This document shows, piece after piece, positions 6,049 through 12,351 of a stretch of 43,476 nt of DNA. Under the pieces are notes generated by a model. That model did no database searches. It saw only the letters and a program-made list of their open reading frames with translations, and had not been told where the DNA came from. Every line of letters starts with the position of its first letter. Positions within the stretch are counted from its first letter, which is position 1. The DNA is taken from the NCBI GenBank assembly GCA_945906945.1, contig CAMDSZ010000003.1:1-43476 (forward strand), in the 5' to 3' direction. A program made the translations under genes and the position numbers. Source of the stretch: Akkermansia muciniphila (GTDB taxonomy: Bacteria > Verrucomicrobiota > Verrucomicrobiia > Chthoniobacterales > Chthoniobacteraceae).

Positions 6049-7431
6049 ATGATTACATTCCTTGCTTCGACCTCGCCTGCCGAGGGTGAAATGGCTCTTT
6101 CTGCTACCCGCGTGGCGATGGCCGCGGGTCTTGCCGTTGCCGCGATGGTTTCTGTGGTGATCGGGGCTTGGTTGGGCCTCACTTTTAAGGCGAGCGAGAA
6201 GCTGATCGCGAACATTCTCGCTTTCGGGTCCGGCGCATTGGTGAACGCCCTGGCCATTGACCTAGCCTACGGGACGACTGAACACCTGGTCCACGAGGGC
6301 GTCTCTAATATCCAGGCCTGGGCGATCGTCGCGGGTGGGTTCCTCGCAGGCGGTTTGGTCTATTTCACATGTAACCGTTTGGTTGCGAGTCACGGTGGCG
6401 CTGCGCGTCACAAGACCACAGCCCGCCAGTTCGCTCTGGATTTGAAGCGCGAGGAGAGCGCCGGCCTGCTGCAGCGGCTCGGGCAGAACGCAGTGTTGCG
6501 CTCCCTGCCGCCCTCGGAGATCGACGGGCTGCTGCCGTACATCCGCGATTTTCATCTCGATCAGGGCAAGTACCTCTTCAAGCAGGGGGATCCCGGTGAC
6601 GCCATGTATTTGGTGGAAGATGGCAGTCTCGGCGTTTTCATTCGGAACGATGCGACTCCCGAGGGTGACGGCAAGAAGATCGCGGAGATCAAAAGCGGTG
6701 ACATTGTTGGTGAGATGGCGCTTCTCGGTGCGGGTGTGCGTAACGCAACAGTCCTCGCACAGGCGCCCGTCGATGCGATGCGCATCGAAAAGGAGGACTT
6801 TGATCATCTGCTTCAAGTGTCGCCGCAGATGAAAGCGGCGGTAAAGGATCTCGCCGAGCATCGGACAATGGACAGCATCAAACAGCAGGCTGGAATGCTC
6901 GATAGCGCTACGTGGGCGAAGATGGCTACGGCGAGCATCCGTCAGTTGAGTGCTGGTGAAGTGGAAGCGGCGCTGGCCGAGCACGGCGGCGGCAATCCGA
7001 TGGCGATTTGGATCGGGAACATTCTCGATGCCATTCCCGGCTCACTGGTGATCGGAGCGACATTCGTTGGATTCGCAAAATTTAACCCGACGCTCTTGAT
7101 CGCGATCTTTCTGGCAAACTTGCCTGAAGCGATGGCGAGCGCGCATACGATGCGTCAAGCGGGTTACAGCAACCTCAAAATCTACACGCTCTGGGGATCG
7201 CTCCTGTTCATTGCTGCGGGCTTTGCAGCGGCCGGCAACCTCCTGCTTCCGATAATGCCGGTTCAGGTGCTGGGTCTTTTCGAGGCGATTGCCGGCGGCG
7301 CGATTCTGGCGCTGGTGGCGCAAGTGATGTTCCCGCACGCCTACGAGGAAGGCGGTGACGTGGTGTCGCTCTCGACCATCGGTGGATTCATCGCTGCATT
7401 CTTCCTTACCGCGATGGACATGAAGCACTAA
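6049..7431 (+). CDS. ZIP-like integral membrane protein with inserted cyclic nucleotide-binding domain
   Basis: 460 aa; N-terminal TM helices (LIANILAFGSGALVNALAIDLAYG), central cNMP domain (FKQGDPGDAMYLVEDGSLGVFIR...GDIVGEMALLGAGVRNATVLAQ), C-terminal TM helices with NILDAIPGSLVIG and FLANLPEAMASA resembling ZIP TM4/TM5. Confidence 0.8.
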   Translation: MITFLASTSPAEGEMALSATRVAMAAGLAVAAMVSVVIGAWLGLTFKASEKLIANILAFGSGALVNALAIDLAYGTTEHLVHEGVSNIQAWAIVAGGFLAGGLVYFTCNRLVASHGGAARHKTTARQFALDLKREESAGLLQRLGQNAVLRSLPPSEIDGLLPYIRDFHLDQGKYLFKQGDPGDAMYLVEDGSLGVFIRNDATPEGDGKKIAEIKSGDIVGEMALLGAGVRNATVLAQAPVDAMRIEKEDFDHLLQVSPQMKAAVKDLAEHRTMDSIKQQAGMLDSATWAKMATASIRQLSAGEVEAALAEHGGGNPMAIWIGNILDAIPGSLVIGATFVGFAKFNPTLLIAIFLANLPEAMASAHTMRQAGYSNLKIYTLWGSLLFIAAGFAAAGNLLLPIMPVQVLGLFEAIAGGAILALVAQVMFPHAYEEGGDVVSLSTIGGFIAAFFLTAMDMKH

Positions 7432-9580: not shown

Positions 9581-11020
9581 ATGAGCAATCGTCCTCGTTC
9601 CCTTTTCGCATGGTGCGCTTCTTTCCTCATCGGAGCCGGGCTCGGCATAGCTGCGAACTTTCTTTCCGCAAGCCGCGCGGGTGATGCAGCGGAAACGCAG
9701 CCTAGAGCGTCTGCCCCTGCTCGCGCCACGGGAGACGACATGGCATTGCAGTCTATCCAAAGTCCGACGCCGGTCGCGCCGCTTAATACATCCGAGCTTT
9801 TGGGATTCGAAAAGCTTTCGCTCGAAAAACAAGTCGAGGCGCTTCAGCGCATTTCTGACAAGCGTCCTAAAGATGAAGAGTACGCGCCAGGCATCCAAAT
9901 CTGGATTGCACGCATGGCGAAAGAGCTTACCGCTGATCAGGCCGCGGCCTTGATTGAGGCGCTGCCTCAGGGCAAGGAGGGTGACGAGTTTTTGCGGGCG
10001 ACCATCGCCGCGCGGCTCGCCGCGCAGGATCCGATGCGCGCTCTTGAGCTTGGCAAAAAACTCGATGACCCGCGCACCATGGCTTGCGCCATCGCCGCCC
10101 TCGCGCAGAACAATGGAGCGGACGCTCTTCGCGCCGTATCCGAGATTGGCGAAGCCAAGCGGGGGCAGGTGTGGGACAATCTTTTTCGCGAGGGCAACTT
10201 CCAGTCGGGCGGCTCGTTTCAGGAAATGGCGGGCGTTCTGCGGGAAAAACCCGAGCTGCTAAAAGACATGCGCGGCAATTGGGCCATGAGTCGCATTCTT
10301 GGCATGGCCCTCACCCACACGGCGATGAGCGATCCAGCCGCAGCGCTCGCCTTGGTGCGTGAATTTGGCGCAGAGATCGAAAAGTCGGCTCCTGCCGACG
10401 CCAATGAGGGAGCCTCTGGACGCGACGCACGGCGCGGCGGCAATCGCGGTGGTTCACGCCCCTCCATGGTTAGCAGCATGATCCAGTCCACCCTCTCCGA
10501 AATGCGCGCCAGCAATCCCGACGCAGCCTCTCGTTTTTTTGATTCGCTTGGTGAAAAGGAAAAGTCCTCGTGGATGCATTCCGACGAGGCAATCACCCGT
10601 TTCCAGCGCCAGGGCATCGACGCCGCTGTGAGTTTTGCAGAGAAGCAAACCAACGATGAATCCATGCGCTCTGCAGCGCTTGGCACTTGGTGGGTGCTTG
10701 CGCAGCGTGACCGTCCCGCAGCCGTGGGGTGGATCGATTCGCTGCCCGAAGGCGCTTTCAGACAGGGAGTACTGAGCGCGGTCATGATTGACGCATGGAA
10801 TCAGTCGCGCACTTGGGGCAGCGAGCAGGCTGCCATCGAGGCGGGTGCGACCCTCGGATCCGAATCCACGAAGATCGACTACTTTGCTTCGCTCATGTCC
10901 GACCGCGCCTTTGGGTTCGGACGCGGTTCCTCGCGGGCTGAGTTGATTCAGTCGCTTCCAATCACCGACGCCCAGAAGTTCGCACTCCAGCAACGCCTCG
11001 CGCCTATCAAGGCGAAGTAA
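9581..11020 (+). CDS. Exported alpha-helical repeat protein, unknown function
   Basis: 479 aa; N-terminal TM/signal segment, A/P-rich linker, then repeated DP.(A/R)AL and W.DSLPEG.-type units. Confidence 0.6.
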   Translation: MSNRPRSLFAWCASFLIGAGLGIAANFLSASRAGDAAETQPRASAPARATGDDMALQSIQSPTPVAPLNTSELLGFEKLSLEKQVEALQRISDKRPKDEEYAPGIQIWIARMAKELTADQAAALIEALPQGKEGDEFLRATIAARLAAQDPMRALELGKKLDDPRTMACAIAALAQNNGADALRAVSEIGEAKRGQVWDNLFREGNFQSGGSFQEMAGVLREKPELLKDMRGNWAMSRILGMALTHTAMSDPAAALALVREFGAEIEKSAPADANEGASGRDARRGGNRGGSRPSMVSSMIQSTLSEMRASNPDAASRFFDSLGEKEKSSWMHSDEAITRFQRQGIDAAVSFAEKQTNDESMRSAALGTWWVLAQRDRPAAVGWIDSLPEGAFRQGVLSAVMIDAWNQSRTWGSEQAAIEAGATLGSESTKIDYFASLMSDRAFGFGRGSSRAELIQSLPITDAQKFALQQRLAPIKAK

Positions 11021-11061: not shown

Positions 11062-12351
11062 ATGAACCGTTCACTTTTTTTGCTAGCGAGTTTTGTCTGC
11101 GGAATCGCGGGATTCTTTGCCGGCCGCATGTTTTCGCCAGTCGCGCGCGCTGCTTCGAGTCTCACTGAGACCTCGCCCAAGGGTGTTGGAGTTCGAGCAA
11201 AATTAGCTGATGCCACAAACGCCGGCTCAGGCGCCGAAGTAGATGAGGGCGCCGCTTCCAAAGTGCCGTCAGTTGCTGCAGAGCAGACCACAAAACAAGC
11301 CGACCCTTTTGTTGCACCGCGCACGCTCAAGGAGCTCTACGACGCAATACAGCGCGACAGCGGCTCGCCCGCCGACGCGCGGCTAGCCGTGATGGAGACA
11401 ATCGGCCGGATGAACCCAGAGCAGTTGGAGACGCTTTTGACCGCCGAGGCTAATAACCCCGATTTTTTCCGACGCATGCGCTTTGACTTTCAATTTGCTG
11501 CCCGTCGCTTTGCTGAAATTGCCCCCCAAATGGCCGCACAACTTTGGCTTCAAAACGCATCCCTGCGCTTTCAGGCCGACACATTACTGGGCGTGTGGGC
11601 TAAGCGGGAGCCGAGGGCTTTTGTGACGTGGATCCTCGCGCTTCCGGCGGATTCGCAGCGCGCCACCGCTTCGGTGGTTGGCGGCATTGCGAAGTCTTCG
11701 CCGGAGGATTTTGCCGCCGTCGCGCCTCTGATCGCCGACACGCCTTCCGCGCCAACGGCCGCGCGGGCGGCCATGCAGTCAATGATTGCATCGGCGTCCG
11801 CAGGGGCAGACCCCGGCGGTGCAATCCGCTACGCCGAGTCCCTGCCTGCGGGCCCGACGCGCAATGCCGCTCTCGCGCAGCTCGCCCAGTGGCCCGGCAT
11901 TGATTTGAAGCAGCATCCTGAGATTTCCGAATCCATCGCCTCATTACCCCGTGAGGACGCCATTCGGCTGGGGCGTGATTTGGGAAAAAACGCGGCCGAC
12001 CTCCCCGCTGGATTTGCGCGTGATGCTGCGTTTGCTGCGAGTGTTCGGTATCAGGCCGAAAAGGATTTTCCGGCGGCTACCACGCGCATGGAATCCCTAG
12101 TGGGGACTCCAGACTATGCGGCCGCCGCGCGGGGGTTCGTGGATGCCACGGCCTCGAAGGATCCGGCGGCGGCTGCGGAGTGGGCGCTTAAGATTGATCC
12201 CAGTGCGCCCGCCCAAAGGGCGGCTGCCCTCGAGCGGGTGGCTCGAGAAATGTTTTTAAAAAATCCGGACGACGCTCGGGCGTGGGCGGAGAAAGCACCC
12301 CTGAGTGACGCTGAATACGCCCAGCTTACCGGCCGCCAGCGCCAGCGCTAG
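11062..12351 (+). CDS. Exported alpha-helical repeat protein, probable paralogue of the preceding gene
   Basis: 429 aa; N-terminal TM segment with same layout, W.KREPRAFVTWILALPADSQRATAS, ASKDPAAAAEWALKIDPSAPAQRAAALERVA repeats. Confidence 0.6.
   Translation: MNRSLFLLASFVCGIAGFFAGRMFSPVARAASSLTETSPKGVGVRAKLADATNAGSGAEVDEGAASKVPSVAAEQTTKQADPFVAPRTLKELYDAIQRDSGSPADARLAVMETIGRMNPEQLETLLTAEANNPDFFRRMRFDFQFAARRFAEIAPQMAAQLWLQNASLRFQADTLLGVWAKREPRAFVTWILALPADSQRATASVVGGIAKSSPEDFAAVAPLIADTPSAPTAARAAMQSMIASASAGADPGGAIRYAESLPAGPTRNAALAQLAQWPGIDLKQHPEISESIASLPREDAIRLGRDLGKNAADLPAGFARDAAFAASVRYQAEKDFPAATTRMESLVGTPDYAAAARGFVDATASKDPAAAAEWALKIDPSAPAQRAAALERVAREMFLKNPDDARAWAEKAPLSDAEYAQLTGRQRQR

Follow-up and report, generated by a model that had tools for sequence, protein, structure and literature searches.

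A ZIP-fold membrane protein of freshwater Verrucomicrobia with a cyclic-nucleotide-binding domain in its TM3-TM4 loop

Can the cytoplasmic loop of a ZIP transporter be exchanged for a cyclic-nucleotide-binding domain (CNBD) and, if so, is the resulting protein still a transporter? The question is raised by a gene at positions 6049-7431 (+ strand) of the window, by which we mean the whole 43,476-nucleotide stretch of contig CAMDSZ010000003.1 that was analysed; the gene is a single open reading frame of 460 aa that starts with ATG and ends with TAA. The initial annotation described the product as a ZIP transporter split by a cNMP-binding domain, and the strings that it quoted (FKQGDPGDAMYLVEDGSLGVF, GDIVGEMALLGAGVRNATVLA, LDAIPGS and LANLPEA) are all found in the translation. 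The split itself was borne out: PF00027 matches between the membrane parts with an E-value of 2e-18, and the reading frame and its orthologues give the order ZIP(TM1-3)-CNBD-ZIP(TM4-8), which is unchanged in full-length orthologues from five further MAGs (61-72% identity). Since all source sequences are MAGs, we considered a chimeric assembly or a gene-calling artefact that had fused a ZIP gene to a CNBD gene. This is vanishingly improbable, as the fusion is common to six separate assemblies at this level of divergence, with frames open and without stops; an assembly artefact is ruled out by the identical fusion in all six, and six MAGs with the same part order indicate that the fusion is genuine. 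Elsewhere in the window, positions 9581-11020 and 11062-12351 (+) hold consecutive open reading frames of 479 and 429 aa without a Pfam match.

The membrane part appears to belong to the ZIP family by fold and descent, not by its transport-site signature. TM1-TM3 cover residues ~17-118 (6097..6402, +), as placed by AF2 helices and alignment to BbZIP, and TM4-TM8 cover residues ~315-456 (6991..7416, +), as placed by alignment, hhalign, AF2 and Foldseek. Of the two Pfam matches, cNMP_binding is above its cut-off; Zip (PF02535) is detected on the TM parts yet falls short, at 16.6 bits (E 0.005) against a gathering cut-off of 35.1 bits. A clade of CNBD-less bacterial proteins carrying the motif LDGIPES, annotated "ZIP family zinc transporter", is likewise under the PF02535 cut-off (22-28 bits), and NCBIfam ZupT matches that clade at 5e-14, under the ZupT cut-off. 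Profile comparison by hhalign aligned the six fusion proteins with the CNBD-less clade over TM1-TM8 (99.9% probability, E 2e-32), and the CNBD-less clade with canonical ZIPs (97.4%, E 1e-11). A sequence search of the TM half against the PDB gave no real match.

Structure prediction points the same way. AF2 run on the six close orthologues alone gave a mean pLDDT of 38.9; with a wider alignment of 12 sequences that included CNBD-less and canonical ZIPs, the TM part rose mostly to 70-88, with helices 19-45, 50-82 and 87-114 mostly at 75-88. The CNBD and linker are of low confidence in this model (pLDDT 27-49), such that coupling geometry and pocket are unreadable from it. When the model was compared with the PDB by Foldseek, the ten best matches were all BbZIP chains (probability 0.99-1.00; TM-score by target 0.53-0.70), and the first structure unrelated to BbZIP had a probability of 0.02; E-values reached only 0.005-0.4 because the CNBD, which makes up about one third of the query, is unmodelled. 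The earlier proposal that the TM halves are ZIP-like is thus upheld both by hhalign and by comparison of the model with BbZIP, with the TM part predicted to adopt a ZIP fold. Like BbZIP/ZupT (ZIP, SLC39, PF02535), the protein would have eight TM helices in the same order, a cytoplasmic TM3-TM4 loop in the regulatory position, prolines at the TM4 and TM5 kinks, and the TM5 Asn/Glu pair. We also considered a channel of the CNG/HCN/SthK type and rejected it: the TM part is ZIP-like, and SthK and MloK1 match over the CNBD only.

In a phylogenetic tree, the six proteins form a single clade (100/100) on the LDGIPES side, with canonical ZIPs split off at 100/100. Their stem branch is long, at ~3 changes per column, and for this reason the tree does not fix an exact sister inside the LDGIPES clade. 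The nearest relatives of the TM part nonetheless appear to be the CNBD-less LDGIPES proteins (for instance L051-L053, with L019 and L020 from the same order), which are up to 38-42% identical over TM4-8 and share an Asp in place of the TM4 His, an acidic residue at the position of BbZIP S106, and a loop that starts RHRKRS where ours has ARHK. They differ in being ~250-290 aa long, in lacking a CNBD, and in having PES, a TM7 Asp and PEA, as opposed to PGS, Gln and PHA here. One LDGIPES-clade gene without a CNBD (G099:C133, L073) is interrupted in one genome of the order by TAG codons and a shift of frame, and may be a pseudogene or an assembly error. ZIP genes of both LDGIPES and canonical kinds occur on IMG/VR contigs (L056, L057 and L059-L066), which are probably host DNA beside proviruses.

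The point at which the CNBD enters the fold could be placed closely. In relatives without a CNBD, TM3 leads into GA(R/K)HRKRS and a short loop; in the present protein, it leads into GGAARHKT and then the CNBD, and the ZIP part picks up again at GG(N/S)P, ahead of TM4. The loop start AARHK (residues 119-123; 6403..6417, +), identified by alignment and profile comparison, corresponds to GARHRKRS, and the insertion begins right after it. Consistent with this, hhalign of the six-protein profile against the CNBD-less clade has one gap, of ~150 residues, that coincides with the CNBD; together with the alignment, it places the insertion exactly in the TM3-TM4 loop, as the initial annotation had proposed. 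In ordinary bacterial ZIPs, the TM3-TM4 loop is rich in His, senses zinc and bends back to cover the exit of the transport path; here, a CNBD stands in its place. In BbZIP, His149 and His151 of the loop (L(3,4)/IL2) form the M3 metal site with Asp144 and Glu276, and this site reduces zinc uptake at high intracellular zinc (PMC10256678; PMC11549095). In the present protein, the loop histidines are absent, and the equivalents of Asp144 and Glu276 are Asn109 and Val426. The CNBD therefore takes the single position of the fold for which a role in transport regulation has been established, and it lies on the cytoplasmic side, where cyclic nucleotides are found.

The inserted module spans residues 128-305 (6430..6963, +), comprising a leading helix, the CNBD and trailing helices, as delimited by homology to a module of REC-CNBD-HDOD proteins. 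Its core, residues 169-256 (6553..6816, +), matches PF00027 cNMP_binding with 66.6 bits (cut-off 27.5), and its top PDB matches are cGMP- and cAMP-dependent protein kinases, with cGMP-dependent protein kinase 1 first (1e-18). The phosphate-binding cassette VGEMALLGAGVRNATVL (residues 220-236; 6706..6756, +) contains the pattern G-E-x-A-L-x5-R: VGEMALLGAGVRNATV and GEkALqgedvRtAnv of PKG give an ungapped alignment. A check of the cassette residues found Glu222 and Arg231, the cNMP contacts, to be invariant in 6/6 orthologues; the position after Arg231 varies across the six (N, S, T, P, A, T), and the module elsewhere drops to 43-65% identity to that of the window.

This pattern bears on a reading in which the protein is an ordinary divalent-metal importer of the LDGIPES kind and the CNBD is nucleotide-blind, with a structural role in dimerisation or stability. 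The loop is variable in length and sequence among CNBD-less relatives, and the CNBD has diverged faster than the TM part, both of which fit a structural insert. However, Glu222 and Arg231 would be expected to be lost first, yet both are invariant in a domain that has otherwise fallen to 41-62% identity, and the TM part is not that of an ordinary importer, having lost the bridging TM4 Glu discussed below. We consider this reading improbable.

Residues 128-301 (~174 residues) are 48-56% identical to proteins of ~740-800 aa from the same order. These have a REC-CNBD-HDOD architecture, shown by Pfam for one of them (L012), and share the leading and trailing helices with the module; unlike the membrane permease proposed here, they have soluble receiver and HDOD domains. 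In a CNBD tree of eight REC-CNBD-HDOD and six ZIP modules, the two kinds emerge as sisters, with support of 97/98 for the joint clade and 92/94 for the split. The simpler reading, which we infer, is that a ZIP captured the module from a REC-CNBD-HDOD protein of the same order, because proteins of the latter kind span at least two families of the order, as against a single genus for the ZIP fusion. The REC-CNBD-HDOD proteins of Chthoniobacterales (L012-L018, L058), with receiver, cNMP-binding and HDOD domains, resemble a lineage-specific signalling protein in their own right.

Does the membrane part still hold a metal site? We mapped ligand positions by alignment on BbZIP, with ligand roles from PMC9873690. 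In TM4 (residue changes in TM4, TM5 and TM7 all lie within 6991..7416, +), H177, N178 and E181 are replaced by Asp327, Ala328 and Gly331; in TM5, Q207 and D208 become Ala356 and Asn357, and E211 is kept as Glu360; E240 is also replaced by Ala. In TM7, H275, E276 and E280 correspond to Gln425, Val426 and His430, and, within TM1-TM3, S106 and D144 correspond to Asp71 in TM2 and Asn109 in TM3. The signature HNxPEG / [HQ][ND]xPEG is absent, with LDAIPGS and LANLPEA in its place, and the TM4-TM5 ligand positions still filled are Asp327, Asn357 and Glu360 only. The initial annotation had given HNxPEG as the canonical TM5 motif too, which is incorrect for the reference, as the TM5 motif of BbZIP starts with Gln.

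Comparison with the CNBD-less clade dates these changes. In that clade, position 177 (BbZIP numbering) is Asp, 178 is Gly, 207 is Ser and 208 is Asn, and the TM6 Glu is lacking; position 106 is acidic as a rule, Glu is nearly always kept at 181 and 211, and so are a TM7 Asp and a TM7 Glu. Because CNBD-less relatives carry LDGIPES, the TM4 His-to-Asp change is older than the CNBD insertion. The earlier claim that the His ligands are lost and one Glu is left thus stands as regards the altered site and Glu360; the loss of the TM4 His is inherited, not specific to the fusion. From the motif Asp-x-x-Pro-Glu-Ser of LDGIPES, the fusion proteins retain Asp, Pro and Ser, with Glu changed to Gly in 6/6, such that the loss of the TM4 Glu (PEG/PES to PGS) is invariant. 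In BbZIP, this residue, Glu181, is the bridging ligand for both metals (PMC9873690). What is new in the fusion protein therefore appears to lie in TM4, where the bridging Glu is lost, and in TM7; these changes are shared by all six proteins. By alignment, little is left of the metal sites beyond Asp71, Asp327, Asn357, Glu360 and a new His430. With the equivalents of Glu181, Gln207, Asn178, Glu240, Asp144 and Glu276 gone, it is doubtful that zinc could pass by the known route; and with oxygen ligands and one new His remaining, zinc is the less likely substrate, suggesting another cation or a non-transporting derivative.

The second of these options is the main rival: a pseudo-transporter, whose ZIP fold moves no metal and may serve as a membrane-bound, cNMP-responsive receptor or scaffold, either with binding of a metal or other ligand altering cNMP binding, or with a cNMP-responsive module at the membrane acting on a partner protein. 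In its favour, all six proteins have lost most of the M1/M2/M3 ligands, the bridging TM4 Glu among them, and the inserted module descends from a signalling protein. We nonetheless regard it as unlikely: there is no catalytic, DNA-binding or interaction domain, no neighbouring gene is conserved at the five other loci, and TM positions, small residues and remaining polar residues are conserved beyond the needs of a scaffold. Indeed, these are the most conserved positions of the protein. Identity to the window's protein across orthologues is 73-82% for TM4-8, 68-78% for TM1-3 and 41-62% for the CNBD core; dS is saturated and dN/dS uninterpretable, so the conservation argument is one of amino-acid identity alone. 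Since TM4-8 is the most conserved region, the TM part appears to be under selection, not decaying.

The gene is narrowly distributed. Intact orthologues occur in 6/12 genomes of one Chthoniobacteraceae genus, in a group of freshwater Verrucomicrobia. Among 197 genomes of the order, other genera yielded no ZIP-CNBD fusion, and six other genomes hold CNBD-less members; none of the other matches in 388 genomes of the phylum has a CNBD. Phages gave zero matches, and no plasmid record covered 80% of the query; other phyla were sampled by a scan with query-derived patterns, which detects close relatives only. One rhizobial match (H1, query 38-280) was rejected as a ZIP, as by eye it resembles a protein of the K+/H+-antiporter type that carries a CNBD at its C-terminus. 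A PF02535 search, which misses the present protein too, found no second ZIP in the genus.

Across the six loci the gene neighbourhood is not conserved; the one shared feature, a divergent TerC gene, is limited to the two closest genomes, and the operon therefore gives no clue to the substrate. TerC proteins are associated with manganese handling. The TerC-family genes lie divergently upstream of the ZIP-CNBD gene (L002:2893-3780 and L003:2803-3696; Pfam 2.5e-48 for L002), and we take them as a hint, not as a conserved neighbourhood. In a single genome, the ZIP-CNBD gene is followed immediately downstream by a peptidase M48 (HtpX-like) gene (L005:4336-5214, CAMCIN010000074.1).

The genome to which the window belongs encodes a REC-class III cyclase (PF00211, 3e-61), whose motifs EKIKTIGD and YDLWGDTVNIASRM align with mammalian adenylyl cyclases, at positions that we take to specify adenine (Lys and Asp) and to serve catalysis (Asn and Arg) in those enzymes. 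By these residues, the cyclase appears to be an adenylate-cyclase-like enzyme. Class III cyclases are found in 12/12 genomes of the genus; a class I cyclase was searched for and not found.

We propose, at about even chances, that the protein is a cNMP-gated permease of the ZIP fold, in which a REC-CNBD-HDOD-derived module serves as the loop and a remodelled site probably binds a cation through oxygen ligands. Of the two possibilities raised by the initial annotation, such a nucleotide-gated permease with changed substrate appears better supported than a transporter-derived sensor, since conservation is highest in the TM core and there is no other output domain. A CNBD by itself has no output, which leaves the TM domain as the sole candidate. 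TM4 is part of the moving transport domain in the elevator mechanism. Binding of cAMP (or cGMP) would most likely shift the trailing helices, which presumably continue into TM4, and this shift could bias the elevator motion of the transport domain, opening or closing permeation; control by the substrate metal would thereby be swapped for control by a second messenger. The substrate would probably be a cation held by oxygen ligands (e.g. Mn2+, Mg2+ or Fe2+) and not bound at the standard ZIP zinc site, which is the weakest step of the proposal.

ZIPs, CNBDs and transporter-CNBD fusions are already known; a CNBD within a ZIP was not found in the literature searched. In the sperm Na+/H+ exchanger SLC9C1, the CNBD does not lie within the transporter domain. 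SLC9C1 further differs from the present protein in being eukaryotic, with an exchanger domain from another family and a voltage sensor, although it too is a transporter gated by a CNBD (PMC6052114). Bacterial MFS transporters fused to CNBDs are also known (PMC10710835), and these are alike in being bacterial transporters with a recruited CNBD; their fold is unrelated, and they are described as fusions, not as internal insertions. Our literature search found no paper on a CNBD inside a ZIP, and a pan-domain ZIP survey mentions neither cyclic nucleotides nor fusions (PMC5751234).

Regulation of ZIPs by the TM3-TM4 loop is an active question, for the BbZIP M3 site as for plant IRT1 and human ZIP4. 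Here, the loop seems to have been exchanged for a well-understood ligand switch, which would make loop regulation testable with added cAMP or cGMP, and the protein may serve as a naturally occurring model for engineering ZIPs gated by ligands. Likewise, the absence of the bridging TM4 Glu from all six proteins would be a natural experiment on the ligands that a ZIP requires. It is possible, though somewhat less probable than gating as such, that the protein is a second-messenger-gated ZIP with a site rebuilt for a cation outside those of known ZIPs, and that metal entry or exit is under direct, post-translational control by cAMP; if true, this would tie cAMP directly to metal traffic in bacteria.
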